Shown: positions 36,901 through 57,759 of the stretch, one piece after another | Layout of the letters: each line of letters begins with the position of its first letter | How positions within the stretch are numbered: position 1 is the first letter of the stretch | NCBI GenBank assembly: GCA_949152475.1 | Contig: OX424568.1 | Coordinates: forward strand, 12,685,667-12,749,666 | DNA: 64,000 nucleotides | Origin: Terebella lapidaria | Lineage: Eukaryota > Annelida > Polychaeta > Terebellida > Terebellidae | Reading direction: 5' to 3' | The notes under the pieces: generated by a model | Databases searched by the model: none | The model's input: the letters and a program-made list of their open reading frames with translations, nothing else | Told to the model about the DNA's origin: nothing | Made by a program: the position numbers and the translations under genes

Positions 36901-37600
36901 TGTGGATGCACTAGCCGGCTGCTCGACCCCTGGCGAAATCTCTGGGTGAGGTGTAGATGCACTAGCCGGCTGCTCGACCCCTGACGATATCTCTGGGTGA
37001 GTTGTGGATGCCCTAGCCGGCTGCTCGACCCCTGGCGATATCTCTGGGTGAGGTGTGGATGCACTAGCCGGCTGCTCGACCCCTGACGACATCTCTGAGC
37101 GAGGCATAGATCCGGTGCATGCCGGCTTTGGACATGAGACAAGACAAAATATGACATGGCATTTTATTTCCAGTACTCATTGTAATAGACTTTGGTACAA
37201 AAGCATAATATTTTTTACAGTTGTGCTTGACAAATGACCAACCATAACAATAAATAAATGATCGGATGACCGGTGAACACTTGATGAAATAGTAGGACGT
37301 TATTATGCCGAGCAACCTAGCTACCTCGAAGACATCTTTTCTCATCGCATGACCTTCTGGGGGCTGATCTTTTCCACAGGGAGCTGTGGGTCCAGTGTGT
37401 TTGGTTGAACTGGAGCCTGTGAAAATCAATTGAATATCGATTAAGCATAGTCAACTCGACGAATCCCAAATTTTGTGTACGATTTGAAAGATACACTTAG
37501 GGAAATTCAGATGTATGCTTACACTACCTTTGGTCTTCTTCAATGACATTTGGAGGAGCATCTGGCCACGATTCACTGGAATATTTTTACAGCCCAGCAT
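33910..37600 (-). CDS. Transposase-like protein of the 9.36 kb element, 4 exons
   Basis: Exons 37600-37528, 37416-37325, 37125-36460 and 36300-33910 join with GT-AG signals and matching phases into 1073 codons. The N-terminal part carries about a dozen 17-residue repeats (SSGVEQPASASTPHPEI). An acidic region and a very basic stretch follow (RSRKRKRKYE, a likely nuclear localisation signal). The large C-terminal domain has conserved-looking acidic motifs: WSMDLQ (about 810), IIWSDGCGYQNRN (about 889) and GHTQMECDSMH (about 929). I propose these as a DDD/DDE-type catalytic core. Similar SDGCGYQNRN proteins of unknown function are common in invertebrate genomes, which I recall but could not check. 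The frame is open, so the element may be active. Confidence 0.72.
36490..37095 (-). repeat. 51 bp coding minisatellite
   Basis: About twelve copies of a 51 bp unit (GTGTGGATGCACTAGCCGGC core) in transposase exon 3. The copies stay in frame, and related units continue at the start of exon 4. Confidence 0.88.
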
Positions 37601-40300: not shown

Positions 40301-40444
40301 GTTAATTATAAGTGATTTACGTGCATTTCCCGGCACATAGGGTTATTTTCATTGGTGTAGAATGTCCAAATGAACCCTATGGAACTAAAATCTCATTTTG
40401 TGAAAAAAATGACTTAGGCCATTTTTGCTTTAGCCTGTCGATAT

Positions 40445-40525
40445 GAGCTGTAACACTTTACGAGTCATGGAAAACAGTGTTCGATGTGAACCGAAACAAG
40501 AATAGTATTTTACAAAATCGCCACA
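40445..40525 (-). repeat. Gypsy LTR, remaining part of the interrupted copy
   Basis: Continues the LTR from 31082 and ends AAATCGCCACA. It contains GTGTTCGATGTGAACCG, the site used by the hAT-like insertion in the other LTR. Confidence 0.9.
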
Positions 40526-40541
40526 TTATTCCCCCCCTACT
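40526..40541 (-). promoter_or_regulatory. Gypsy polypurine tract
   Basis: On the minus strand AGTAGGGGGGGAATAA abuts the 3' LTR, as expected for the plus-strand primer of reverse transcription. Confidence 0.8.
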
Positions 40542-40882: not shown

Positions 40883-42019
40883 TTAATCAAGACCCCCACT
40901 AACCCTTCCCACGATATCCGAACGGGTACAGCAAGAAAATTGTTTGGGCATAACATACCATGTGAATTCTTCCGTCACTTCCACCGTCCCATCCGGGTAT
41001 GTCTTACGTCTCTTGATATGATGGTGTACAGGGCGTTGCGCAAGATCTCTAGTTGAGGTTCCCTGGCTCCTCTCATACACTTGTTTGGTGGGCGAGGTCT
41101 GGCTGACAACGGATCTAACCGATGAGCCACGCGATCCGGTTTGGACGGCCTTTGGCTTGGTGCCGATAGGTTCTTCATCGTGCTCATCTGGCAGATGGAG
41201 TGTGATTTGTGGTGACGGCCCAATGTCCAAGCTCTCATCCATCACCTGTGGTTTCTTTATTGGAGTGTATTTAGGACATTGGCTGGCTATGAATCCAGGG
41301 GAGTACGGGGAGATCGCCTGAATCGAGGCGATAGCGTCCTGCAGCTCCGCATCATCCCCCCTCTGCATTGTTGGTGTTCTGATGACCTCCATCCATGCAC
41401 CTACGGGTCGGTTCGGGGACACATCGTGTGTGGTTCTCACTGGGGACTCTGGCCTTCTCCGCTTTTTAGGTGAAGGAGCTGTTTGTGACACGGAGGCACA
41501 TGGGCTGGATGTGGAGAATGTTCTGGAAGGTGACCCTGACAGCCGATTCCTGAGGTTCTCTCTCAGAGGGGATTCTGTCCTTGTCCGTTTTTGAGGCGAA
41601 GGTGCTGGATGCGACACAGAGGCACACAGGCTGGACGTGGAAACCGTTCTCCGAGGTGACCCAGACAGCTGTTTCCTGAGGCTGTTCTCTCTCAGAGGGG
41701 ACTCCGGCCTTGTCCGTTTTTGAGACGAAGGGGCGCTTTGTGGGCTGAACACACGCGGACTGGACTTGGAGAATGTTCTCTCCGGGGTCTCAGCCCGAGG
41801 TATCACGACCTCCTTAATCTCTCGAAGAGAAACGTCCAAAAACTTTGTTGGGTGCTGCCTCTTGATGTGATGACGTATGACGTCGTCCGCACGATTACCC
41901 TCATGTGGGCAATAAGGGCACCGATATCTCTTGATTTGTTGTCCATGTTTGTTATTAATGTGCCGAAACATGGCCGACTTTTGCGTGAATACTTGATCGC
42001 AGCGAAAGCAACGATGCAT
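40883..42019 (-). CDS. C2H2 zinc-finger ORF downstream of Gypsy integrase
   Basis: 378 codons, starting 102 bases after the integrase stop and ending about 340 bases before the polypurine tract, in the position where some Gypsy elements carry env. The N-terminus has two C2H2-type fingers: CFRCDQVF with HINNKH (residues about 4-24), and CPYCPHEG with HHIKRQH (about 33-55). Then come three diverged roughly 41-residue repeats containing SQKRTRPESPLRE-like basic/serine segments, and a charged tail. There is no signal peptide or membrane segment, so it is not an envelope protein. The fingers and basic repeats suggest a nuclear, nucleic-acid-binding accessory protein. The frame is open although pol is broken. 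Confidence 0.7.
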   Translation of the reverse strand: MHRCFRCDQVFTQKSAMFRHINNKHGQQIKRYRCPYCPHEGNRADDVIRHHIKRQHPTKFLDVSLREIKEVVIPRAETPERTFSKSSPRVFSPQSAPSSQKRTRPESPLRENSLRKQLSGSPRRTVSTSSLCASVSHPAPSPQKRTRTESPLRENLRNRLSGSPSRTFSTSSPCASVSQTAPSPKKRRRPESPVRTTHDVSPNRPVGAWMEVIRTPTMQRGDDAELQDAIASIQAISPYSPGFIASQCPKYTPIKKPQVMDESLDIGPSPQITLHLPDEHDEEPIGTKPKAVQTGSRGSSVRSVVSQTSPTKQVYERSQGTSTRDLAQRPVHHHIKRRKTYPDGTVEVTEEFTWYVMPKQFSCCTRSDIVGRVSGGLD

Positions 42020-42121
42020 GGTTGAACCGTCAACTGGAATGTAAACCCTTATTCATTAGAATGCAGATAAGGCACATACATGCACAATCATATTCGTATC
42101 TCACTCAGAGGTCACTGTCCA

Positions 42122-43666
42122 TCATACCCACTCCCCAAACCTATTAGGAGCTCTACGACTGCGTGTGGCTCTACTAACATCATTTTGTTCAGCGGCATAT
42201 GTATCCAAAGATACATCAGTGTCTTTGTCTACCTCATCCACATCACACCTAGATTCCTGGACTGACTCATTCTGAATACTATCATGACTATTGGGCTCCG
42301 TCTGTATCATATCAGAACTTTCATTCTGAGTCAGCCAACTAGGTTCATCTCCATGGTATGGATACAACCGATCCCTATGCACAATAATTTTTCTGGCAGA
42401 AGCAGATTTCTGAATCTTGTAAATATTTTCTCCTATGGTCTGTAGTATCACATATGGACCTTCCCAAAAACTTTGTAATTTGGGGGACAACCCTGTTTGG
42501 CGCTTTGGGGTGTGTAACCAAACTTGATCTCCCTCTGCAAGAGCACTGTCCCGCACCTTATGATCATAATTTCGCTTTTGTCTCTTCGCACTGACTTTCA
42601 GTGCTTGCCTAGCACATTCATGAGCATCTTCCATGCGTTTACGGAGCATATCCACATAATAAAGCTCACTATCAAATATTTCTAGGCTGGAATCAGGCCT
42701 GCCAAACATGAGGTCAATGGGCAATTCCACCTCACGGCCCAACATCAGTAAATTTGGACTACACTGTGTGCTCTCATGTGGTGTAGCCCGATATGCCATC
42801 AACAAACACGGTAACTTCTCGTCCCAATCACTTTGATTTTCATTAACATACATACGCAACATAGTCTCCATTGTGCGATTGAAACGCTCAACAAGACCAT
42901 CAGAGGATGGGTGAAATGGGGTTGTCCGGGTTTGATCAATATCCAGGAGTTCACACATCTCCCGAAATAAATGAGATTGAAAATTTGAACCTTGGTCACT
43001 ATGCAGTTGTCTGGGGACACCAAACCTGGTGAAAAACTCATTAACTAGTTTCTCTGCCACAGTGTAAGCTTCCTGGTCAGGAATAGGATATGCCTCGACC
43101 CATTTTGTGAAATAATCACAGACCACTAGAATATGTTTGTTTCCATTCCTACTGAGTGGCCATGGTCCAGCGATGTCTATTGCAATACGTTCCATTGGGA
43201 GGCCAACTCCATACTGCTTGAGGAAAGCTCTCCTCTGTTTGGGCGTTACATTGTTCTTTGTGCACATACTACACTTCTGGATCCACATCCACACATCTGA
43301 CTCCATACGGTGCCAGAAAAATCTAGTGCGTACAGAACTCCATGTCCGATTAACACCCAAATGACCAGCAGTATGGGAATCATGCAGTTGCCTTAAAACA
43401 TCAGAGACCAAAGATTTCGGCAATACTAACTGCAGGGAAGTTGACTTTAGTTTTTCATGTACCCATCGGCGATATATCACACCATCATGAAACTCAAGGC
43501 GTGACCAATTACTCCACAATAACTTAACCACAGCATTTTCCGTAGATACCTCTTTCCATGGAGGCTTCTCAGACTGCGATTCTTTCCATTTCAGAATCTT
43601 GAAAATATTTGGATCCTCTAGCTGTTTGTTTCGTAACTCATCTGAACTCCAACAGAAAGCCAACAT
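42122..43666 (-). pseudogene. Gypsy integrase region
   Basis: A 514-codon frame. The zinc-binding H-H-C-C region (HTAGHLG, CSMC), a DDE core (AIDIAGPW, HSDQGSNF, GLVERFNR) and a C-terminal GPY-type module (FWEGPYVILQ) are all visible and intact. It overlaps the end of the upstream protease/RT frame by about 50 bases in another frame, so pol is frameshifted at 43.62-43.67 kb. Confidence 0.85.
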
Positions 43667-45174
43667 TCAGAATGGCCATTACTCTTTACAGGTGCATTGG
43701 ACCTCCTAGCCAGGGAACAAACTGAAATACCTGTAGCTGGCTTTGAATGCAAGATCTCTCTTGCCTTCTTTTTGAAATCCTCTGAGTTCAAAAGCTCATC
43801 CCCATCAAACTCAACACCAAACCCACACTGGCCACATGGCCGACGACTCAGCCCATCCGCATTCCCATGCTTCTTCCCTGGCCGATGTTCAATTGTACTA
43901 GGTGCATTACACAACCCGAATGGCATGACAATGAATTGATAAAGACCAGTGCCTGCAGAAAAAGCAGTTTTTGGCCGGTCAGCCTCAGCAACCTCAACCT
44001 GCCAGTAACCACTGCAGAGATCCAAGGTGGAAAACCACTGTGCCCCAGCTAAACCATCTAAGGCTTCATCTATCTTAGGCAAGGGATATGCGTCTTTCAA
44101 TGTCAGATCATTTAATTTGCGATAATCAACACAAAAGCGTGTTGTGCCATCTTTCTTTTTCACCAGTACGATCCGTGAAGTCCATGGACTTGAAAACTTT
44201 TCTATCACACCTTTTTCCAGCATTTTATCTATTTCATTTTCGGCTACCTTTTTCTGATGAAGAGGAAGGCGCCTGGGTGGCTGCTTAACAGGCCTAGAAT
44301 TACCCGTGTCAATGATATGCTTCACCAATGTAGTACGACCTAAGTCACTGTCATCCTTGGCAAATATATCCTGGTATTCAATCAGGAGAGTTCTCAGCAC
44401 ATCCTGTTGTTCTGGAGTCAAATATTGACTAGATTGATCGAACATATTTTGCATATGCTCTGGCAAAACTTGATGCTTATGCTCACCAGAGTCAGGACGA
44501 CCAATAGAACACACTCGTGGGCGCGGCTCATCAGCACTATCAGGTCCAGAAATTTCTATCACTGGATGATACATCCCAATATTTGTGCCCTTATGCACTG
44601 TACGCGGTTCATCAGTCAAGTTAAGTGCTATCAGTGGGACAGTGTCATTGCAACTAGTTACTAGTGATTTTCCAATCAATAACCCGGACTTCTCCACAAA
44701 CTTTTCAGATGCTTCAATGACTCCCTCCGGACTACAGTTACTCCGCCTGTGCAATTTTGCGGGTAGAACCATCTGTTCCCCTGCTGGAATAGTGAAAGTG
44801 TCAAACATCTGAACTCTACATGCTGAGGCGTCATCCCCAACTTCTCGATAATATATCGTGGTTTTCCCAAACTTAACACAGCCTTTACCATAGTCAATTT
44901 TACAACCCTGAGGTTTCAGAAAATCATTTCCCAACAAGCCATCAACTTTGATATCTGCTACAAGGAGCTCATGGCAAAAAGTCAGTGGGCCGAACTCTAG
45001 ATTCAGAGTAATTTTGCCATCCACTTGAATAGCACTATTATCAGCGAGTGCCAATACTTCTGATGACTCACACAAACATAGATTTGAACTTTTTTTCAAT
45101 TTATCAAATGTTTCCCTAGAAACAATAGTGACTGAAGAGCCACTATCCAACAAAAAAATCAACATGAGTGCCAT
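43618..45174 (-). pseudogene. Gypsy protease and truncated reverse transcriptase
   Basis: The aspartic protease motif LLDSGSSVTIV is at the start. The RT fingers/palm follow (VLVKKKDGTTRFCVDYRKLN, LDLCSGYWQVEV, VMPFGLCNAPST). Directly after CNAPST the frame jumps to EHRPGKKHGNADGLSRR, normally the end of RNase H. The RT palm with its YxDD motif and almost all of RNase H, roughly 1 kb, are deleted in frame. A shift in a T-run near 45150 also separates protease from its natural upstream frame. Confidence 0.88.
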
Positions 45175-45300
45175 TCACCCAACCCGGCAAAAATAAACTT
45201 ATGTACCTGTTATTATTAACAGCGGGGTTTTTGATAATATGGGTCACACGCCTACCCTCATTATCAATAGCCAAACTTTGACCCGCAAGTTTAGCCTCAT

Positions 45301-45621
45301 CTAGTTTCCCTGAGTTGACTTTCCAGCCGTCTCATTTTGATCCCTTGGTCCATGTGGACAACGATACTGAAGATGTCCCTCTTCCCCACAGTTCCAACAG
45401 CAACGCTTGTCAGAGTTTGATGATGCCTTGTTCTGTCCTATATTACGCTTCTGACCTGTCGACCCTGGTTGTCTGTCTCTGGTCTGACATTTCTTCAATT
45501 GCTCTATCTCAGCTTTCAAGTCATTGACTATTTTGACCATGTCAGTCATATCCTGGAAATCAGAATTTTGAGCCGAGACATTTGTAGCCCTTACGGGTCG
45601 TCTATTCTGGTCAGACCCCAA
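45301..45621 (-). pseudogene. Gypsy gag C-terminal part with zinc knuckle
   Basis: 106 codons with a CCHC knuckle (CWNCGEEGHLQYRC) preceded by a coiled-coil-like segment. It overlaps the end of the main gag frame by about 10 bases in another frame. The join reads as a mutation rather than an obvious slippery site. Confidence 0.75.
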
Positions 45622-46600
45622 TCCTTGACTTTTTGAAAGCCTGCCACTCTGTTGCTAATTGGATAACATCTTGCAATGAACCCGGTTTACCCTGATAAAT
45701 GTGCATCCGCATCTCGCTATCTGTCAAAGCATCGACGAAATGGCCCTTGGCCAATATATCCCTTAGTGCTACACTAGCATCCGGATATGCACGTGCTGTT
45801 AGCCGCTTTATATCCTGCCCCAAATCAGCGAAACTTTCCTCAGCTCTTTTCTTTCTGTTTTTTACTTGGGTCCGAAAGAGCTCACTTTGACCCTCATGTC
45901 CAAACCTAGACTGAAGCTCCTTCGTTAGCACAGCATAACTCAACAAACTGCTGCTGGGAAGGTCACCCAACAACATGTGTGCAGTGTTTTTCAGACTTAC
46001 AGCCAGAAAGCTTGCTTTCTGCTGTTCATTCCAGCCATTGATAGCAGCACACATTTCAAAATGAGCCTGATAATCCTCCCAACTCCCACTACCATCAAAC
46101 TTATCAGGCATCACAACTGGCTTTTTGTGACTTGTGTGTGTCATTTGGGCATTGCCCTGTGAATAGATGGGAACAGTTGACACACTCGGGCGGGGTGGAA
46201 TGGGTGGGGGTGCCATGAAACTCTCATACAAATTCCCCCCCTGCTCAGTTCTGGAACAGGTACCCCTATGCCTCTCACCATCAACGTTTCCCATATCCAG
46301 GCACTCGTTACTACCACTGTAGTTCATATGTGTAGTTGGAAAACCAGGTTTCAGGTAGTCACCTCTCTCTCGCTGTGTCAACCCCATAACCCCAGTATGG
46401 GAGCTGGTGATACTTGGGCAGATATCGCCAATCAGTGGTGTTCTACCTTTACTGCCGAATTCTTCATTTTCCCCAATCAAAGTTGTTCGACTCTTGAAAG
46501 TCACTGTATCTGGACTGGCATAAAGTCCAGAGTCTTGTGCTAAAAGTTTGGTCTCTTGCTCAGTGCCACCAGCCCCTTTTAATATGTTGGGATCCATCAT
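45611..46600 (-). pseudogene. Gypsy gag N-terminal and capsid part
   Basis: 329 codons beginning 12 bases after the primer site. Residues about 165-320 (MPDKFDGSGSWEDYQAHFE, AHMLLGDLPSSS, RNRKKRAEESFADLGQDI-like) are typical of Gypsy capsid. It ends prematurely at 45611. Confidence 0.8.
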
Positions 46601-46612
46601 TTAACGAAGATA

Positions 46613-46629
46613 TCCCACCGCTGCCACCA
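46613..46629 (-). promoter_or_regulatory. Gypsy primer-binding site, tRNA-Leu type
   Basis: Minus strand TGGTGGCAGCGGTGGGA, complementary to the 3' end of a leucine tRNA (acceptor CGCTGCCA plus CCA), four or five bases from the LTR end. The same 17-mer occurs in the miniature element at 48416. Confidence 0.8.
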
Positions 46630-46634
46630 AAATA

Positions 46635-48070
46635 TGTAGCGATTTCTCGCTCAGGATTCTTTTGATATCTATTAAGTTAAGAACTCCCAGTTTAATATCT
46701 GTATCTTCAGAAAGCACTCTGGAGCATATAAGAGACCAAACACAAGACTAACAACAATTTATTTAAAGTATCAATAAAGAGGGTAAACATTGAACAACTG
46801 CAGGCTTCTCATTTCTGACATACATTCACCCAGATACTCACACAGTGTCAATAACTGTTAAATAAATATAGACAGTGACCACCGGTGGACAACTCAGTAT
46901 AATAAATTAGATAACAGACTAATATTCTACTATCACCGCCATCTCAGTGATCAGTTCAGTCAGCATACATGAAATTACATGTATAATGGTTTTGTACAAC
47001 CTCAAATGGGCATGTCTTGGAATTATTTCGAAAACTCGTATCGGTAGATTCCACAGAGACTCAGAAATAATACTAAGTGTAACCGAAGATTGTACCAGGA
47101 ATTTCCCTTGTCGAGCACGACCACCTGGAACCAGGGTCTGGTGTCCTCACCAGCCCTAAATCACTAAATAAATAAAACCAGGCGCTGCTCCACCGAGAGC
47201 ACTGAGCCCCGAAATATCTCACTACACCATATAATCCAATTAGCTCAGCTGTAAACGGGCTGACTAATATATGATGTTATAAACTACTCTGCTGAACATC
47301 TCCAGTACTCTGGATAAATATATCAATCATAACTTGGCCTAATTATTATGATATAGTCAATGCGTTCGGTCTACAAGTTATGGCTCGGCTATAAATGCTG
47401 AATGCCCTGTACTGATAGAGTACGTAACCGAACACTGTACCGAAAGAGGAACCGAACACGGTACCGAGTTATTCGGCTACAGACAGACCGCGGTCCCGCT
47501 AAATGCTTGACAACAGACAACAATCAATACCGAAGGCGTACCGAATGGCTGTACCGTATGTTTCGGTACTTCTTCCATAAAAGGACAAAAGCCGGCTCGG
47601 TAACTACCGAACAACCGAAACCGGATACTGAAACTTCACCGCATATACCCGAGATGTCAGCACAATATTTCATGCAAATATTTGCCCAGCGGCAGCCGTT
47701 TACACCCAACTGCACGGTAGATAGTCTCTGTGGATCACCGAAAGAATATTCGGAACAATTCCAATACAGATACAACTCACCAAAAGTCTCGACTTGTTTA
47801 GTTCGATCTGTCTCTACCGAAAGTTCTGACAACAAGTGCCGAAACAGCGTTCGACGATCGCTTAAATAGCTTCCGTGACCTTGACCTTGTGTACGATACC
47901 GAAAACACCGAAAAACTTGGATCACGCTTCGAACATACTTTTACACTGTTTAAGTGGATTAATGCTTCAGGAAAACATCACAGAGTATGTAATATTAGAT
48001 ATAGAACACATTGTATAAGCTTGAAACATAATATGAGCTGTAACACTTTACGAGTCATGGAAAACAGTGT
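46635..48070 (-). repeat. Gypsy LTR at the high-coordinate side (5' LTR), first part
   Basis: Counterpart of 29672-31082 plus 40445 onward. It lacks 11 bp present near 29790. It preserves the uninterrupted ATAT site at about 48032. Interrupted after 48070 and resumes at 57715. Confidence 0.93.
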
Positions 48071-48318
48071 CACAGGCATTTGTCTCAAGAGAGGGCGTGG
48101 GGTGGCGTGGGGGTAAAAAAAGAAGAAGGTATGAAACGAATGTTGATTTCTGATACTGTGATAATGAATTCAATGTGCCGCTGTGAATAAAATAATACGG
48201 ATAGAAACAAAATTCTTTCACGGTTTACTTCGTTCGCCTTTCCCCTACCAGAAAACATCTCAATGTGACCTCTCTGATATGTGTGAAATTGTACTCCTAC
48301 TAGCTTGGCTAGTGGGAT

Positions 48319-48390
48319 ATCCCTTTAGCTCATCTGGTAGAGCGGATGGTTGATGTGTGAGAGGTCCCGGGTTCAAATCCCAGTCTGGCC
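48319..48390 (+). promoter_or_regulatory. tRNA-like Pol III promoter inside the left LTR
   Basis: Box A TAGCTCATCTGG at 48326-48337 and box B GGTTCAAATCC at 48370-48380. The 44-base start-to-start spacing is that of a tRNA. The D stem (GCTC/GAGC) is perfect and the T stem pairs four of five. Acceptor and anticodon stems do not pair. Repeated in the right LTR at 48606-48677. Confidence 0.75.
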
Positions 48391-48415
48391 GAGGCATTCC
48401 TCGCTTGGTTACAAT

Positions 48416-48432
48416 TGGTGGCAGCGGTGGGA
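48416..48432 (+). promoter_or_regulatory. Primer-binding site of the miniature element
   Basis: TGGTGGCAGCGGTGGGA, two bases after the left LTR. Identical to the Gypsy primer site at 46613-46629. Confidence 0.8.
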
Positions 48433-49202
48433 TGCCTTGTATTCCTTCGGGATGTGGCCCTGTTATGACTGAGGATGTCCTGAGGTTGAAGTAGGATGTC
48501 TGGTTATAGCTCCTCACCTCGGGACGAGGTTTCAAAACCCCCCGGAAATGTGTGACCTCTCTGATATGTGTGAAATTGTACTCCTACTAGCTTGGCTAGT
48601 GGGATATCCCTTTAGCTCATCTGGTAGAGCGGATGGTTGATGTGTGAGAGGTCCCGGGTTCAAATCCCAGTCTGGCCGAGGCATTCCTCGCTTGGTTACA
48701 TCAACATCAACAATTATGCACTTGCACACATGGATACAACCATCCAAATCATGCCACCACCCCCATTTCCCGCATCTTCTACACTCCTTCATGACACTCG
48801 CAAGCACAAAAATATATGAAAATCACAACTTCACTAGCAGTTATCTCATCCTACATACCGAAACATGTACATCAAACAATTCTCAGTGGCGATATTTTCC
48901 TAATTTGAATCGCTTTCCGGCAGATTTCTGAAAGAATTGTCAAAATTTAGGTGATTTGTCCCAATTTCTATCAATAACACAACGAAATATTTCAGAGGTC
49001 ACATGATCACCTGTGGTGCTGCAGTGAATAAATAATATAAAAATAATGTTCTAATATACCTGGGAAACATATATGGGTTGTGTTTTGGGTCTATATGATA
49101 CATCTATGTACCAATGATTACAGATATATCACAGATAAATATTTCAGACATGTTAAAACATTGTTTCTATATTATTTATTCACTGCGGCGTGGTAATGTG
49201 AC

Positions 49203-49953
49203 TGTATCGGTATCAGTCAGATAATTTGTTGTGTGCGTTATGATTTGAGTGAGTGCAGATAGTAGAAATTTGCAGTTCGCGGATAACATGTTTTGTTGTC
49301 GTCGATCGTACGTTTTTTGTACGCATAAACACTGTGGATCAAGTTGTAAAGTTTAGTGGGTAAGATTACGAAGTATTTTGTAACGAACTGTTATATTGTA
49401 CATCTGGAATTACCGAGATATATTTTGTGATTGTCATTTCGATCGCTGTAGTGAAGTTTGTTCTACGATTGATTTCAGGCATTGTACCCAGTTATCGCCC
49501 ACTCACCCCCGACTGGATGTGTGTTGTCATGTAATACCTCAGAGTTTGTAAGTTCACTAAATTGGTTTAGAGGTTGTTTTTCACATTAGCGATACAAATA
49601 TGTTGTGGATATGTTATCGGTTGGAGAATTAGCATATCATTTCGAATTGTAAAGTAATTTACACAAAACAAGAATTGTGTTTTAAAAGTTTTCTTTTCAA
49701 CAATATATACATCCAAGCATATATATTTCCCTGCTACATAAACATAGTATAAGGTAATTTCGATTACTAAGCGCATTATACATTGAAACAATATGTGTAC
49801 TCACCTATACCTACCTGTATACTTACCTTTGTTTGTGTTTGTGTATTTGTAGGGAACCTACCTACACCATCAATAAACGATTCGCTATCTTATTGGTGGT
49901 TGAGTTTCCAACATTGAGCCGACCTGCATATGAAATACACACATACCAGTACA
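49203..49953 (+). repeat. BEL 5' LTR
   Basis: Begins TGTATCGGTATCAG and ends CCAGTACA. Same length as the 3' LTR. Confidence 0.95.
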
Positions 49954-49994
49954 GTTCCAAACTTCTGACGATCGGATCCAGAAGTCCAAGAAAG

Positions 49995-52900
49995 ATGGCG
50001 ACCTTTCAGCGGCTCAAGCAAGAACGTACCAAGGCGAAGCATCATGTCACTACAGCAGCCAGACGTCTGAAAGGAGCTATAAATCGGGAAGCAGATCAGA
50101 CCTGCATCACGACTTTCATGACAGAGCTAGAGCGCTGCTATGGCGATTTTGAAATGTGCGATGAAGACTTTTGTAATGAGTTAGATAAATTGAGATCTAT
50201 ATGTTCGGACATCGATATGGATGGTGAAGCCATTGTTAATGGGGAGGATCCCCATGAATATAGGGAAAATGTTTTCTGTGTGTACAAAAGTGCTATTGAA
50301 CTGTACAATGATAATGTAGGTAATGTAGAGGAGTCTGTGGAGACTCTGTCTGATAGTAATTTTTCAGGAGTCACAGAATCTCGATTTGTAAGTGCACAAA
50401 GTCCTCCCCTAACCAGCCACAGTGTCATGGGGGCTGGTGTAACAGGTATATACAGTAACCCTGTTATTTTCAATGTACGCACTCAACCAAGTATTCCCAG
50501 TATGTATCCACACAGTGTCATTGGTGCTAGTATTCCAGGTCACTCGGTTCCAGCAGCTAGTCCACCAGGTGTAGTCAGTCACAGTGTAATTGGTGCTAGT
50601 ATTCCAGGTCGCTCGGTTCCAGCAGCTAGTCCATCAGGGGTAGTCAGTCACAGTGTCATTGGTACTAGTATTCCAGGTCACTCGGTTCCAGCAGCTAGTC
50701 CACCAGGTGTAGTCAGTCACAGTGTCATTGGTGCTGGTATTCCAGGTCACTCGGTTCCAGCAGCTAGTCCACCAGGTGTAGTCAGTCACAGTGTCATTGG
50801 TGCTAGTATTCCAGGTCGCTCGGTTCCAGCAGCTAGTCCATCAGGGGTAGTCAGTCACAGTGTCATTTGTGCTAGTATTCCAGGTCACTCGGTTCCAGCA
50901 GCTAGTCCACCAGGAGTAGTCAGTCACAGTGTCATTGGTGCTAGTATTCCAGGTCACTCGGTTCCAGCAGCTAGTCCACCAGGTGTAGTCAGTCACAGTA
51001 TCATTGGTGCTAATATTCAAGGTCACTCGGTTCCAGCAGCTAGTCCAACAGGTGTAGCCAGTGACGATGTCATGGGTGCGGGTGTTGCAGATCACCCAGT
51101 TCTGCCACCAGTATTCAGTTCTGGCTCCATGCTTGAGAGGGATAGTAGAGGTCCTGCTCCTCCTGGAGTGCATCTCAAGAAGTTCACTCTTCCTGAATTT
51201 TCTGGCTACAGGAAAGACTGGCCAGAGTTTAAGGCTATCTGGCGGGAACTGGCAGATACAGCATACACCAACAAAGCCTTACTAGCTTGCCAACTCAAAC
51301 GATCTCTCAAGGGAGAGGCACGAGAGAAGATCAAGAACATCTATATCACAAAACCGGGGGCGTATGAAGCTATGTGGAAGCGATTGGGAGAGCACTACGA
51401 TGATATCACAGCTTGTGTTCAAGCAGCCATGGGAGACTTGCAAAGCCTGAAACAAGTATCGGAAGATGACTACAATAGCCTCATCAAACTTATTGACACT
51501 GTGGAAGGTGCCTATGCACAACTGGAGGAGCTGGGGCAGACTGGCAGTATATCTCTGCGTGAAGTAGACCGCATTGTTACCCTGCTACCTCCCTCTACCA
51601 AGATGGTGTGGATCAGGCAATATCACCAAATGGATGTGTCACTACAGCTGAGACCTCTAGAGATGTTCATGGACTTCCTGAACAAAGAGAGAGCTGCCAT
51701 TGCTCGCTTAGCTGAAAACCAGAAAAAGCCGAGTGGTAGAAGTCAATCTCATGTCACCACTGCACCCAAGTCACACACAAACAACCATTCCAATGACCAC
51801 AGAAAAAATCGCTGCTTTATGCCATGTCATGACAACACCAATGTCAAGCATTCTACTGCGATTTGTCGAGAGTTCCGGAAGCTCAGTGTGGCAGAACGGC
51901 ATGACATAGTGAAAAATGCATCCGCTTGTTTCCGATGTCTCGGAAATCACAGAAGAGAGAACTGTACCAGTGACAAATCATGCAGGAAGTGTGGGAGGGC
52001 AAACCACAATGTACTGCTGTGTCGAAAACCAGACAACAAGCCTACAAATGAAGCCAGTGTCCAGGAGCCTCTATGGGATAAAAATGATGAAAATGAAGAG
52101 AGGCAGAAGAGTGCCACAAACGGAACATACAGTAATAACGTCAAGGATCAGACGGAGTGTGCGTTGTATCCAATTCTACAGGGATTCGTGACAAACAGTG
52201 GAAAGTGGGCAACCATCTTCTGTGATGGGGGGTCAAATTGCTCATACATCACCCACAAGGCAGCCTACAAGTTGAGGGCCAAAAGACTGAACAGGTTCAC
52301 GCTCGATGTGACTACAATGGGTGGGGTTGATACCACTTATGACACATGTCTGTATGAGTTCTCCATCAGATCCGAGTGTGGGAAAACCATTCCAGTCCGT
52401 GCATTTGGGATGGAGAAAATCACAGGCCCTGTTACTCAACTAGATGAGAACTGCATTCATCGGCTGTTTCCCAGCTATGATCCAGTTTTACTTCAGAGGA
52501 AGTCGAAAGAAGTTGATATTTTGCTTGGGTGTGACTACTTCGGACTACATCCCAAGCAGGAAGTATGTACAGCTGGAGATAACCTAAGTATCATGAAAGG
52601 TGACCTTGGTATCTGTCTCCAAGGTTACCACCCTGACTTGTCAGAAGGTACAGAAGTCTATGCAACACTGGTGAAGGAAGTTCATGGAGCTGATCTGAAG
52701 ACGAGGTGTAATCTGGCACAATCACATCACCACATGGTTTTCAATGGCCACGCATCTTCATCCCATCAAGATTCTGCTTGCTGCAGTATTGGGAACGGAA
52801 CTGTCATCAACCCAATGAAAACAGAAACTATGCTAACGAAAGCAGAAGATAAGCAGATGTCATCATTCATCCAAGGAGAAGAGCTTGGCACTGAGATCAA

Positions 52901-55900
52901 ACCCAAATGTGGGGGATGCCAGTGTACAAAATGTCCTTTGGTAGGACATACGTTCTCTTTCAAAGAGCAACAAGAGCTAGACATGATCCGGGGCAATCTG
53001 CGCTATGAGCCAGAGATGCACTGTTGGTTTACCAGTTATCCTTGGCTGATGGATCCGGCAAATCTTCCCGAGAATTATCATGTCGCCCTGGCTACTCTCA
53101 AGAACACAGAGTCTACCTTGAGTAAGGATGCAGTATGGGCAGAAAAGTATGCTTCACAGATGGAAGATATGCTTGATAGAGGTGTGGCAAGAAAACTGTC
53201 CCAAGAAGAGCTGAACACATGGTCAGGGCCAGTGTTCTACATCAGCCACTTAGCTGTAAAAAACCCACACTCCACATCAACACCTGTGAGGATAGTGTTC
53301 AACTCCAGTCAAGTCACCCGAGGCGTGTCTCTGAATTCTTCTTTGGCCAAAGGACCTGATGGTTACATGAATAACATGCTGGGATTACTGCTCCGCTGGC
53401 GAGAAGAACCTGTAGCGGTAATTGGAGACATTCGCAAAATGTTTAACTCGGTACACTTGGAGCCAGTAGAGCAACACTGTCACCGGTTTCTCTGGCGAGA
53501 TCTGGATGTTGCGAGAGACCCAGATGTGTACGTTATCACCAGAGTGAACATGGGAGACAGGCCAGCGCCTGCCATCTGTACAGAAGCCATGTACGCCACA
53601 GCAGATATGTTCGAGCAAGATGATCCCAAAGCAGCTCATGTCATAAGGCACTCCACTTATGTAGATGATATACTGGATTCCTTCCAAGATGAAGCTACGG
53701 CCAAAGAAGTCATAGGGAATGTAGAAGGCATGCTGGCTACTGGTGGGTTCCACATCAAGTGGTGGCGACTAAGTGGAGGAGAAACCATAGAACGAGGGAA
53801 GACGTGTATCTCTGAGAAATCTAGACCAGCAGAACAGCAAACATCCATCCTTGATGGTGGAGAAGCTATCACAAGAGTACTGGGTGTAGGCTGGAGACCA
53901 GAAGAAGATTGTATTGTGTTCGAAGTAAACTTGAACTTCTCACCAAAGAAGAGGGGAAAGCGGACTAGTCCCAATCTAACTGTCACACAAGTGCCAAGGG
54001 AATTACCTGAAGTGGTAACTAGACGAGGAGTGCTTGAGCAGGTGATGATGATCTTCGACCCCTTGGGTCTGATGAGCCCCTTCACTCTGCTTGCTAAAAT
54101 CTACCTCAGAGAAACGTGGGCCCTAAGGAAAGGATGGGATGAAGCTCTGCCTCCTGATCTCCATCAGAAATGGACACAGTTCTTCTGTTTGATGTTCGAA
54201 GCAGAACAGTTGAGATTCGAAAGGAATCTACATCCATCCAATGCGGAAGGTCCACCCTGGTTGATTCTGATGTCAGATGGCAGCGACGTTGCCTACGGAT
54301 TTGTCGCGTACATCAGGTGGAAGTTGACAGATGGCAGCTATTGGTGCAGACTCATCATGTCAAAAAGCAGAATAGCTCCTCTGTCCAAGCGGTCTACTCC
54401 TCAAATGGAACTAAATGGAGCTGTCCTCTCCAAGCGAGGACGAGTCGTCATAGAAAGAGAAATGAGATACTCGTTTGAGAAAGTTCTACACATTGTGGAC
54501 TCAGAAACAGTACTCAACATGATAAACAAAGTTAGCACAAGGTTCAAGGTCTATGAAGGAGTGAGGTTAGGAGAAATCCAAGCGGCAACGAACGGAGACA
54601 TGTCTTGTTGGGCTTGGATAAGCGGAAACTCTAATACAGCCGATCTTCTCACCAGGGGTCGAAATCCTCAGGAGATAGGTCCTGAATCTGAATGGTGGAA
54701 GGGACCTGCGATATTATACCAGCCATTTGAAACGTGGGGCCTGAAGTTTGGACTGCAGAAGGAAGAACCAGTGCCTGGAGAAAAGAAGCTTCCTACCTCA
54801 TCAAACACAGTCACAACTACAACTCATACCCAAGAACGACAAGGAGCTGCACTTGTGAACTATGAAAACTACAGTTCGATCATCCGAGTCTACTGGGTAG
54901 TGGCACGTCTTCTCTCCATGGCCAGACTGAAATCATTCAAAGGAGGACAGATTGAAAATGTCACACCAGAACTATTACTTGCAGCAGAAGAACTTGTAGT
55001 AAAAGATGCCCAAAGGCACATAGGAGGAGAGCTGAGAAAGGTCTCAGCCAAGAAAACTGGTGGTCAGTACGCATCTTTGAAGCCAATGCCTGGAGCCGGT
55101 GGGGTTTGGATTGTTGGAGCACGATTGACCCAGTATAACCCGATGACTCCAGAAAATGAACCTCAACGATTGTTACCACATGGACATGCCATAACAAAAC
55201 TCATCATGAAACAATGTCATGAATCAAGCGGTCACCGTGGAAGGGATGGTACCCTCGCCAAATTCCGACAAAAGTTTTGGACGCCCAGGGCAAGCAAGCT
55301 AGCTTGGACGATTAAGAGCAACTGTCAACTCTGCAGATTACGGGATCCAAAGTTGATTCAACAGGCGATGAGTCCTCTACCAGAGGCCAGGACAAAACCA
55401 TCACCTCCATTCAACAGAGTAATGGTGGACTTCTTTGGACCTTATCTGGTGAGGGGAGAAGTCCAAAAGCGAATCAGCTCAAAGGCATACGGTGTCATCT
55501 TCACGGACCTAACTATGCGCGCTGTGCATATAGAAGCTGTCTTCGGATATGACACAGGATCATTCTTGATGGCGCTGTCGAGATTTGCTAGTCTTAGAGG
55601 TTGGCCAGAAATAATCTACAGTGACCCAGGATCGCAACTGATAGGAGCAGACAGAGAAATGAGAGATGCATGGCACAAGTTGGACAAGCTTCCAATACTC
55701 AAAAAAAGCACAGAAAATGGACTCAGATGGGTATTTGGGCCAGCTGATTCACCTTGGCATCAAGGAGCAGTAGAGTCAATGGTGAAATGTACCAAGAGGG
55801 CAATTCATTATGCTGTACATAGCCAGAGGCTATCACCCGCAGAATTTCTCACACTATGTGCAGAGATTTCCAACCTCATCAACGAGAGACCTCTTGGCAT

Positions 55901-56363
55901 CATGCCTGGAATAGAGGCAAGCATCAGTATCTTGACTCCGAATAGCCTTCTGTTGGGAAGAGCTTCAGCGAAGAACCCTGGAGGTTGGCAACCTGAAAAT
56001 TCGAACATCGCAAGAAGATTCAATCTTGTGCAGCAGATAACCCAGCATTTTTGGGAAAGATGGACAGAGCTTTGTGCACCTTCCTTGCTGGTTCAGAGAA
56101 AGTGGCACAAGTCTAGTCGTAACCTACAAAAAGGAGATGTGGTTCTCGTAGCAGACAAGAACACATTGAGAGGAAACTACCATCTTGGACTCATCAAAGA
56201 AGTGTTTCCAGGGAAGGACGGCAAGGTCCGGCGTGTGAGTTTGACGTACAAGAATTTCAAAGTTGGAGAGCAAGCATGTGAATACCATGGAAGCGCTGAC
56301 ACTGTTGTGACTCGAAGTGTCCAAAGATTAGCACTTCTTGTTCCCATCGAGCCTTTAGCTTGA
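49995..56363 (+). CDS. BEL/Pao gag-pol polyprotein
   Basis: 2122 codons in one frame. The ATG at 49995 has a good context and lies 41 bases after the LTR; the open frame extends back into the LTR without a convincing start. Order: basic N-terminus; eight 23-residue repeats (about 173-356); a gag domain of the DUF1759 type (about 394-545, LPEFSGYRKDWPEF); zinc knuckles CFRCLGNHRRENC and CRKCGRANHNVLLC (about 645-676); aspartic protease (FCDGGSNCSYI, about 742); RT with FNSSQ and YVDD (about 1098-1225); RNase H (LMSDGSDVAYG, about 1423); integrase zinc region (HESSGHRG, CQLC, from about 1732) and DDE core (VDFFGP, YSDPGSQL, GAVESM at about 1811, 1875, 1924); and a C-terminal domain of the DUF5641 type. 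No break is visible. It may be active. Confidence 0.95.
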   Translation: MATFQRLKQERTKAKHHVTTAARRLKGAINREADQTCITTFMTELERCYGDFEMCDEDFCNELDKLRSICSDIDMDGEAIVNGEDPHEYRENVFCVYKSAIELYNDNVGNVEESVETLSDSNFSGVTESRFVSAQSPPLTSHSVMGAGVTGIYSNPVIFNVRTQPSIPSMYPHSVIGASIPGHSVPAASPPGVVSHSVIGASIPGRSVPAASPSGVVSHSVIGTSIPGHSVPAASPPGVVSHSVIGAGIPGHSVPAASPPGVVSHSVIGASIPGRSVPAASPSGVVSHSVICASIPGHSVPAASPPGVVSHSVIGASIPGHSVPAASPPGVVSHSIIGANIQGHSVPAASPTGVASDDVMGAGVADHPVLPPVFSSGSMLERDSRGPAPPGVHLKKFTLPEFSGYRKDWPEFKAIWRELADTAYTNKALLACQLKRSLKGEAREKIKNIYITKPGAYEAMWKRLGEHYDDITACVQAAMGDLQSLKQVSEDDYNSLIKLIDTVEGAYAQLEELGQTGSISLREVDRIVTLLPPSTKMVWIRQYHQMDVSLQLRPLEMFMDFLNKERAAIARLAENQKKPSGRSQSHVTTAPKSHTNNHSNDHRKNRCFMPCHDNTNVKHSTAICREFRKLSVAERHDIVKNASACFRCLGNHRRENCTSDKSCRKCGRANHNVLLCRKPDNKPTNEASVQEPLWDKNDENEERQKSATNGTYSNNVKDQTECALYPILQGFVTNSGKWATIFCDGGSNCSYITHKAAYKLRAKRLNRFTLDVTTMGGVDTTYDTCLYEFSIRSECGKTIPVRAFGMEKITGPVTQLDENCIHRLFPSYDPVLLQRKSKEVDILLGCDYFGLHPKQEVCTAGDNLSIMKGDLGICLQGYHPDLSEGTEVYATLVKEVHGADLKTRCNLAQSHHHMVFNGHASSSHQDSACCSIGNGTVINPMKTETMLTKAEDKQMSSFIQGEELGTEIKPKCGGCQCTKCPLVGHTFSFKEQQELDMIRGNLRYEPEMHCWFTSYPWLMDPANLPENYHVALATLKNTESTLSKDAVWAEKYASQMEDMLDRGVARKLSQEELNTWSGPVFYISHLAVKNPHSTSTPVRIVFNSSQVTRGVSLNSSLAKGPDGYMNNMLGLLLRWREEPVAVIGDIRKMFNSVHLEPVEQHCHRFLWRDLDVARDPDVYVITRVNMGDRPAPAICTEAMYATADMFEQDDPKAAHVIRHSTYVDDILDSFQDEATAKEVIGNVEGMLATGGFHIKWWRLSGGETIERGKTCISEKSRPAEQQTSILDGGEAITRVLGVGWRPEEDCIVFEVNLNFSPKKRGKRTSPNLTVTQVPRELPEVVTRRGVLEQVMMIFDPLGLMSPFTLLAKIYLRETWALRKGWDEALPPDLHQKWTQFFCLMFEAEQLRFERNLHPSNAEGPPWLILMSDGSDVAYGFVAYIRWKLTDGSYWCRLIMSKSRIAPLSKRSTPQMELNGAVLSKRGRVVIEREMRYSFEKVLHIVDSETVLNMINKVSTRFKVYEGVRLGEIQAATNGDMSCWAWISGNSNTADLLTRGRNPQEIGPESEWWKGPAILYQPFETWGLKFGLQKEEPVPGEKKLPTSSNTVTTTTHTQERQGAALVNYENYSSIIRVYWVVARLLSMARLKSFKGGQIENVTPELLLAAEELVVKDAQRHIGGELRKVSAKKTGGQYASLKPMPGAGGVWIVGARLTQYNPMTPENEPQRLLPHGHAITKLIMKQCHESSGHRGRDGTLAKFRQKFWTPRASKLAWTIKSNCQLCRLRDPKLIQQAMSPLPEARTKPSPPFNRVMVDFFGPYLVRGEVQKRISSKAYGVIFTDLTMRAVHIEAVFGYDTGSFLMALSRFASLRGWPEIIYSDPGSQLIGADREMRDAWHKLDKLPILKKSTENGLRWVFGPADSPWHQGAVESMVKCTKRAIHYAVHSQRLSPAEFLTLCAEISNLINERPLGIMPGIEASISILTPNSLLLGRASAKNPGGWQPENSNIARRFNLVQQITQHFWERWTELCAPSLLVQRKWHKSSRNLQKGDVVLVADKNTLRGNYHLGLIKEVFPGKDGKVRRVSLTYKNFKVGEQACEYHGSADTVVTRSVQRLALLVPIEPLA
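50511..51062 (+). repeat. Eight in-frame 69 bp repeats in BEL gag
   Basis: Each encodes HSVIGASIPGHSVPAASPP plus GVVS (23 residues). They alternate H/R and P/S variants, which suggests duplication of two-unit blocks. Degenerate half-units flank the array. Confidence 0.93.
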
Positions 56364-56447
56364 AGTTTTGTAATTGTTCTCAGTTATCAGTTTGTTTTAT
56401 TCAGTTGTTCGATCGCCATTCCAATCAGCAAAACGCCTTCCCCCCGG

Positions 56448-57198
56448 TGTATCGGTATCAGTCAGATAATTTGTTGTGTGCGTTATGATTTGAGTGAGTG
56501 CAGATAGTAGAAATTTGCAGTTCGCGGATAACATGTTTTGTTGTCGTCGATCGTACGTTTTTTGTACGCATAAACACTGTGGATCAAGTTGTAAAGTTTA
56601 GTGGGTAAGATTACGAAGTATTTTGTAACGAACTGTTATATTGTACATCTGGAATTACCGAGATATATTTTGTGATTGTCATTTCGATCGCTGTAGTGAA
56701 GTTTGTTCTACGATTGATTTCAGGCATTGTACCCAGTTATCGCCCACTCACCCCCGACTGGATGTGTGTTGTCATGTAATACCTCAGAGTTTGTAAGTTC
56801 ACTAAATTGGTTTAGAGGTTGTTTTTCACATTAGCGATACAAATATGTTGTGGATATGTTATCGGTTGGAGAATTAGCATATCATTTCGAATTGTAAAGT
56901 AATTTACACAAAACAAGAATTGTGTTTTAAAAGTTTTCTTTTCAACAATATATACATCCAAGCATATATATTTCCCTGCTACATAAACATAGTATAAGGT
57001 AATTTCGATTACTAAGCGCATTATACATTGAAACAATATGTGTACTCACCTATACCTACCTGTATACTTACCTTTGTTTGTGTTTGTGTATTTGTAGGGA
57101 ACCTACCTACACCATCAATAAACGATTCGCTATCTTATTGGTGGTTGAGTTTCCAACATTGAGCCGACCTGCATATGAAATACACACATACCAGTACA
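56448..57198 (+). repeat. BEL 3' LTR
   Basis: Reads the same as 49203-49953. It is preceded by CTTCCCCCCGG rather than a purine tract. Confidence 0.95.
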
Positions 57199-57714
57199 GT
57201 GACCAGTGATGATCATGTGACTGATGGGCTGTTTGTTGTTGGTGCTGTAGAAGAAAGACACTAAAAGAGCTGAAATACAACAAATTGGGATAATGCCTTT
57301 GAAAGTTGATTAGAAATGAACAGATATCATCAGTAGGAATTGTTTCATGTGCCTATACAGGTATATGCAACGAGATAATGTTGTGGAAATTGTGTTTTTT
57401 GTCACTTTTTCGAACTCGCGAGTGTCATGAAGGAGTGTAGAAGACGCGGGAAAACAGGATGGTACCTTGACTTGGATGGTCATATCGCAATGTACAAATG
57501 TACAATTGTTGATATCAAGTGTTATCCTGGTAGAGGAAACACAAACGAAGTACACTGTGAAAGAATTTCGTTTCTATCCGTGTTATTTTAGTCACAGCGG
57601 CACATTGAATTCAATATCACAGTATCGGAAATCAACTTTCGTTTCATACCTTCTTCTTTACATACTCCACCCCACCGCGCGCCCTCTCCTGAGATGGATG
57701 CCTGTGAACAGTGT

Positions 57715-57759
57715 TCGATGTGAACCGAAACAAGAATAGTATTTTACAAAATCGCCACA
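57715..57759 (-). repeat. Gypsy LTR, remaining part of the high-coordinate copy
   Basis: Continues the LTR from 48070 and ends AAATCGCCACA, matching 40481-40525. Confidence 0.9.

Follow-up and report, generated by a model that had tools for sequence, protein, structure and literature searches.

A miniature LTR retrotransposon of 437 bp is found at positions 48264-48700 of the window (the whole 64,000-nucleotide stretch of annelid DNA that was analyzed), and a box A and a box B of the tRNA type are present in each of its LTRs. The element belongs, as an ordinary member, to a kind of TRIM described in 2024 under the name Helenus, in a phylum that is new for this kind within the literature searched; what looks new lies in aberrant copies of the element, either chimeric or folded back, that are found in the same genome. 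The best explanation, in which we place high confidence as a whole, is a TRIM that moves in the LTR manner, with a predicted cycle that would combine transcription by RNA polymerase III with mobilization by a Ty3/Gypsy retrotransposon. In such a cycle, the tRNA-like boxes A and B of the 5' LTR would attract Pol III, the RNA would start at LTR positions 51-58, some 5-12 nt ahead of box A, and transcription would extend at least as far as the 3' LTR. The element RNA would be packaged into Ty3/Gypsy particles, and minus-strand DNA would be primed by tRNA-Leu at an 18-nt site. Both LTRs would then be rebuilt by two strand transfers, and the Gypsy integrase would insert the product, making a 4-bp duplication.

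The two LTRs are direct repeats of 150 bp (TGTGAC...GGTTACA) located at 48264-48413 and 48551-48700. They are 100% identical, as a sequence-only reading that preceded this work had stated. The internal region between them (48414-48550) has 137 bp, and no open reading frame of 120 aa or more overlaps it in the list of open frames of the window. Target-site duplications with the sequence tcaa, read from the sequence and then scored by script, are found on the left (48260-48263) and on the right (48701-48704). A primer-binding site of 18 nt, TGGTGGCAGCGGTGGGAT (48416-48433), starts 2 nt inside the end of the 5' LTR; allowing up to three mismatches, 2 matches to this site are observed in the window against 0.01 expected. 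We take this sequence to be the complement of the 3' end of tRNA-Leu, and under that assumption the tRNA-Leu primer site and target duplication announced by the earlier reading are both in place. The polypurine tract is weak: a single purine-rich stretch, cggaaatg (48543-48550), precedes the 3' LTR directly and is a possible candidate. The LTRs, the internal region, the primer site and the purine-rich stretch are all given for the plus strand.

A scan by script located the box A-like sequence TAGCTCATCTGG at 48326-48337 of the 5' LTR (starting at LTR position 63) and the box B GGTTCAAATCC at 48370-48380, both on the plus strand. In the 3' LTR, box A lies at 48613-48624, as deduced from LTR identity, and box B at 48657-48667. 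The distance from the start of box A to the start of box B is 44 bases in each LTR, the spacing previously proposed. The box B of the 5' LTR is an exact fit to GGTTCRANNCC, which we take to be the consensus, while the element's box A is one base off what is presumably the box A consensus, TRGCNNARYNGG. In the window, GGTTCRANNCC occurs twice, both times in these LTRs; taken alone, this occurrence is weak evidence because 18 of 100 shuffles also contain two or more. Rfam detects a tRNA match that covers positions 8-63 of the 71 in its model; the score, 16.4 bits, falls short of the 29-bit cut-off. Because the match is partial and falls under the cut-off, the tRNA-like stretch looks decayed outside the promoter arms, which fits the earlier description of D and T arms that are kept and acceptor and anticodon stems that are lost. 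ARAGORN, run with bacterial settings, called zero tRNAs in the window and zero in 40 loci; this is a weak test, as the mitochondrial contig included among them gave no tRNA either.

Other properties of the sequence were also considered. The sense strand of the element contains no TTTT, the Pol III terminator, and thus offers no explanation of where a Pol III transcript would end. This absence is not significant (P about 0.4-0.5), and TTTT avoidance was rejected as a mark of Pol III selection. The RNA structure z-score is -2.05 for the LTR and -0.52 for the internal part. A search of viral contigs for the pattern running from box B to the primer site yielded 0 matches.

Evidence for movement of the LTR type was obtained by searching the 761.6-Mb assembly that holds the window. 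At least 48 matches to the element were retrieved from the 40 of 598 candidates that were scored: 45 are long and 93-100% identical, and 3 are short pieces with 85-97% identity. Perfect 4-bp duplications flank the element at 30 of 40 distinct loci, a set of 42 rows from which L009 (a repeat of L008) and L042 (a repeat of L001) were removed. When segmental duplicates (L015/L016, L018/L029, L022/L028/L034) are collapsed, the figure becomes 26 of 36. The ten distinct loci that lack a perfect duplication are L002, L008, L010, L023, L024, L026, L030, L031, L032 and L041. Tandem arrays with the structure LTR-INT-LTR-INT-LTR are found at L008, L018, L019 and L038.

Solo LTRs are also present. Sixteen places were fetched because they had no near partner among the listed matches to the box A segment, and 11 of these contain a full-length lone LTR, which is flanked by 4-bp duplications in 7 cases. 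An extra small piece of LTR is found near the lone LTR of L098, and the other five places are either truncated or contain internal or foreign sequence. With up to two mismatches, the U3 segment is found 274 times in the genome, the box A segment 206 times and the internal segment 75 times (the reversed-sequence control was 0 for each); hence, LTRs are more than twice as numerous as internal parts. The two LTRs of a copy differ on average at 2.6 of 150 positions, as calculated from 34 copies in which both LTRs are full (segmental duplicates were counted), indicating that the family is young.

An empty site is found in the window itself. At 57324-57720, on the minus strand, lies a paralog of the flanking repeat in which the element is missing; when aligned to the script-joined flanks of the TRIM, 315 of 401 columns are identical (79%) and the alignment is uninterrupted across the insertion point. 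This unnamed repeat occurs in inverted copies around the retroelements of the window (48056-48895 and 57324-57720, and also 40441-40528), and the TRIM sits inside one of them. A tandem array with a 51-bp unit, which overlaps open frames, is found elsewhere in the window (36589-37162).

Altogether, the genome holds what the sequence-only reading had predicted, namely many copies with TG...CA ends, short duplications (of 4 bp) and solo LTRs; with the empty site and the probable scars of reverse transcription described below, LTR-type movement is borne out. A larger autonomous relative, which that reading had proposed to look for, did not turn up: no element with the same LTRs and a gene set of its own was found in the assembly, and the long copies seen look like recombinants.

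Two loci physically link TRIM sequence with Gypsy pol. In L087, 1137 bp separate an LTR with its primer site from a second primer site, which is followed by the internal part and an LTR. Within this insert, 808 bases match the Gypsy stretch of an array on C3 (L060, L059) at 98% identity. Reverse transcriptase (RT), RNase H and integrase domains were detected in the latter. Read by eye, the right joint of the C3 array is a common attcctcg at which the Gypsy stretch meets the TRIM U5, while at the left joint the Gypsy stretch is followed by an inverted RT piece and then by internal position 34 of the TRIM. The flanks of the C3 array do not match. Around L087, aatg stands on either side provided that the final base of its 3' LTR is counted as changed, a reading of our own (the script scored no duplication); if it holds, the chimera integrated as one molecule. 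L087 is located at G000:C1:42096500-42098250, amid tRNA matches at C1:42.085-42.139 Mb.

No other copy of the donor Gypsy with more than 71% identity was found in the assembly (23 of 23 candidates scored), save for a 73-base piece at 77%. The donor is thus absent from the assembly, and a common origin for both chimeras is conceivable: L087 and the C3 array may descend from a single event. The fact that two loci have a Gypsy pol fragment in common hints at a Gypsy helper.

Two retroelements that neighbor the TRIM in the window were considered as well. A Ty3/Gypsy element on the minus strand (40883-46630) contains RT and integrase frames and a weak protease match, with open frames at 42122-46600; no LTR pair was found around it. 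A pattern match located the identical 18-nt, tRNA-Leu-type primer site at 46612-46629, also on the minus strand. The integrase of this element has three close relatives elsewhere in the genome (97-98%), and its integrase region shows 33% protein identity with that of the C3-array Gypsy, which places them in different families. The identical primer site indicates the same primer class and is no proof of a helper role; as only these 18 nt are in common and the integrases diverge to that extent, the window Gypsy is not claimed as a direct helper. A BEL/Pao retrotransposon (49203-57200) carries an open frame of 2176 aa and a pair of 753-bp LTRs that are identical to each other, with 69-bp tandem repeats at 50511-51102. 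In the comparison made within the window it did not match the TRIM, and it was discarded.

A first class of joints in aberrant copies is found at the end of the primer site. In L072, L087 and L092, the LTR and the 18-nt primer site are followed directly by foreign sequence (one side was read in L092). The left joints of L087 and L092 have one further g in common with the native sequence, so they lie at most one base past the site, and at the right joints of L087 and L072 the TRIM is rejoined within 3 nt of the primer-site start. Across the 65 loci examined, INT blocks end internally seven times: at 20-21 in three cases, at 34 in one and at 129-130 in three. The L072 insert is a repeat found elsewhere as same-strand pairs several kb apart, and it looks like the antisense LTR of another element. 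It was rejected as a helper gene, as its open frame has no Pfam match up to E 1. The flanks of L072, tgtg and tgtc, match at 3 of 4 bases. In retroviruses, plus-strand strong-stop DNA is expected to end at the end of the primer site, because copying of the tRNA stops at a modified base. A failed plus-strand transfer would therefore fit these joints, and the simplest reading is that run-off was followed by a jump to another RNA and by faulty second-strand joining.

A second class of joints lies just upstream of box A. LTR positions 51-60 (48314-48323, plus strand) are a perfect 10-bp palindrome, GGGATATCCC, where several aberrant copies have joints and where we place the putative 5' end of the RNA. 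The palindrome is in turn the center of an imperfect one of 44 nt (48297-48340), whose score was reached by 18 of 2000 shuffles. In L039, an inverted LTR arm turns at LTR 51-60 and direct restarts occur at 56 and 57/58; in L090, an inverted arm ends at LTR 60. Both loci are flanked by perfect 4-bp duplications. L071, whose flanks do not match, has a fold-back as well as a jump at this palindrome. When the 65 loci were surveyed, 15 starts of internal LTR blocks were found, of which four are at 51, 56, 57 and 60 and 11 lie outside LTR 51-60. Three of the latter at 34 and one at 45 represent the same fold-backs, with the alignment running through the palindrome; the remaining starts are at 21, 28, 33, 46, 102, 106 and 114. 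Internal LTR blocks end at 32 (two cases), 62, 102, 105, 115, 118 and 123. Considered post hoc, the cluster at LTR 51-60 fits a template RNA that would start 5-12 nt before box A; the transcript start near 48319 that the sequence-only reading expected would fall within the same stretch. The cluster is ambiguous, as GGGATATCCC could itself provoke fold-backs.

A third kind of aberrant structure involves the tRNA-like stretch. Positions 1180-1500 of L071 are a complex assembly of LTR pieces, some inverted and some direct, in which the tRNA core is exchanged: in one of its LTRs the two boxes are nearly the same, and the sequence between them is different. A 65-base query with this second core gave at least 41 matches from the 40 of 143 candidates that were scored. 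A 27-base pattern of the second core occurs at 126 places in the genome (0 in the control), and among the 100 of these places that were listed at least 25 same-strand pairs lie exactly 265 bp apart; C16:20912373 and 20912638 are an example. The second core thus probably belongs to a second TRIM family of the Helenus type with tRNA-type LTRs, and L071 looks like a recombinant of the two families.

A tentative interpretation of these joints as a whole, to which we grant slightly less than an even chance, is that they are scars of reverse transcription. If so, they would show where the RNA begins (LTR 51-58) and where an 18-nt plus-strand strong-stop ends; the Gypsy chimeras would derive from TRIM RNA packaged together with Gypsy RNA, and the two families would swap promoter cores by template switching, as in L071, the promoter behaving as a swappable module. 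Ordinary DNA repair or recombination might instead have produced the first two classes of joints, those of the primer site and those of LTR 51-60. Short microhomologies at the joints and the nested palindromes around LTR 51-60 would be in keeping with repair, as would the lack of perfectly matching flanks in L071, L072 and the C3 array. However, the duplications around L039 and L090 (scored) and around L087 (read by us) flank rearranged copies, which suggests that these copies were probably rearranged before integration, and three left joints coincide at the primer-site end within one base. We consider repair fairly unlikely, although the fact that the L087 duplication is a matter of reading, together with the three aberrant copies without matching flanks, lowered our confidence in copying scars and raised that in repair. 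If the interpretation as copying scars is correct, any genome that contains such elements could be searched for chimeric and fold-back copies, which would document co-packaging and the ends of the RNA, and core swaps by template switching, if real, would be a route to new Pol III-driven elements.

The use of Pol III admits an alternative explanation too: the TRIM might be transcribed by Pol II, the tRNA-like stretch being a functionless relic of an old SINE insertion. The lack of a terminator, the imperfect box A and a tRNA score under the Rfam cut-off are compatible with a relic. Variation among copies speaks against it. Sixty-one loci, after four segmental duplicates had been dropped, supplied 104 LTRs and 52 internal parts; in these, box columns vary 1.0% compared with 2.9% in the rest of the LTR, that is, about one third as much (permutation p 0.014; 7 of 149 circular shifts are as low). 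Primer-site columns vary 1.1% compared with 3.5% (p 0.042; 17 of 136 shifts as low). The copies share ancestry, and this lower variation lends modest support to a function of the boxes and the primer site. A relic would likewise account poorly for the joints of aberrant copies just upstream of box A, and for a second tRNA-like core that keeps nearly the same two boxes with differing sequence between them. Transcription by Pol II with a relic tRNA is, in our view, improbable, and we retain Pol III as the predicted polymerase.

The idea that the element is a SINE, tandem or dimeric, that a LINE mobilizes is scarcely credible and was rejected in spite of the tRNA-type boxes, the small size and the existence of tandem arrays, because the copies have TG...CA ends, exact 4-bp duplications, a primer site and solo LTRs with 4-bp duplications of their own, no A-tails were seen in the short flanks examined, and the count of the box A segment (206) does not exceed that of U3 (274), which leaves no free SINE carrying that segment at up to two mismatches. 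The possibility that other copies would show the 150-bp unit as a tandem SINE devoid of primer site and LTR-type flanks, raised by the sequence-only reading, was checked and is not what the loci examined show: the element is a miniature retrotransposon of the LTR type.

Comparison with known systems places the element among TRIMs. SINEs derived from tRNA have an internal promoter of the tRNA type and lack LTRs, a primer site and 4-bp duplications of the integrase type; the element resembles them in its promoter and differs in possessing the other three. The bivalve biv-TRIM is another TRIM of animals that also occurs as solo terminal repeats and in tandem arrays; as described in PMC6934838, however, its terminal repeats have 202-218 bp and its internal region 77-80 bp, compared with 150 and 137 bp here, and no canonical primer site was unambiguously identified in it. 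Cassandra, a non-autonomous plant TRIM that also forms tandem arrays, has in its LTRs a Pol III promoter that derives from a small RNA gene, as is presumed for the element here, and both promoters and terminators are reported in those LTRs (PMC7215508). The difference is that Cassandra carries 5S rRNA sequence and terminators (PMC7215508), while the present element is of the tRNA type without TTTT, and no 5S rRNA match is found among the 15 Rfam matches up to E 10.

The closest relatives are the Helenus elements, defined as TRIMs whose LTRs contain a promoter that derives from a tRNA and is presumed to serve Pol III (Kojima 2024, PMC10886601). As a result, the earlier proposal that animal TRIMs with a promoter of the tRNA type would form a new and distinct hybrid does not hold. 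According to the founding paper, Helenus elements inhabit six animal phyla, fungi and one plant; their size is 311-1263 bp, with 4-bp duplications in animals, solo LTRs, tandem arrays and several families per genome (PMC10886601). The same source presumes Pol III transcription without proof and derives a Gypsy helper in animals from primer-site similarity (PMC10886601). The element described here agrees with Helenus in that each LTR holds boxes A and B within tRNA-derived sequence, and in the primer site for a tRNA 3' end, the 4-bp duplications, the size (437 bp), the non-coding sequence, the solo LTRs and the tandem arrays. The probable second family would correspond to the several families per genome, Gypsy is the candidate helper here too, and the polypurine tract expected of Helenus before the 3' LTR has a weak candidate. 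The host is an annelid: on the mitochondrial contig C438 (15,973 bases), COX1 shows 88% identity with that of Pilargis wolfi, an annelid of the order Phyllodocida and the best of the 120 hits listed. The open frames of this contig, interpreted by eye as ND4L, ND4, ND1, ND3, ND2, COX1 and COX2 in that order on a single strand, are in keeping with annelids. Annelida is absent from Table 1 of PMC10886601; the words annelid, polychaet and Platynereis do not appear in its main text either. In the open-access literature searched we found no later work on Helenus and no annelid TRIMs with such promoters, so that, as far as this literature shows, elements of the Helenus type are extended to annelids. 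Two further differences concern the aberrant copies, and open a route to questions left by the founding paper, the mobilizer of animal Helenus and the start of its RNA: here, TRIM and Gypsy pol are physically linked at some loci, and joints lie at the end of the primer site and at a candidate RNA start.
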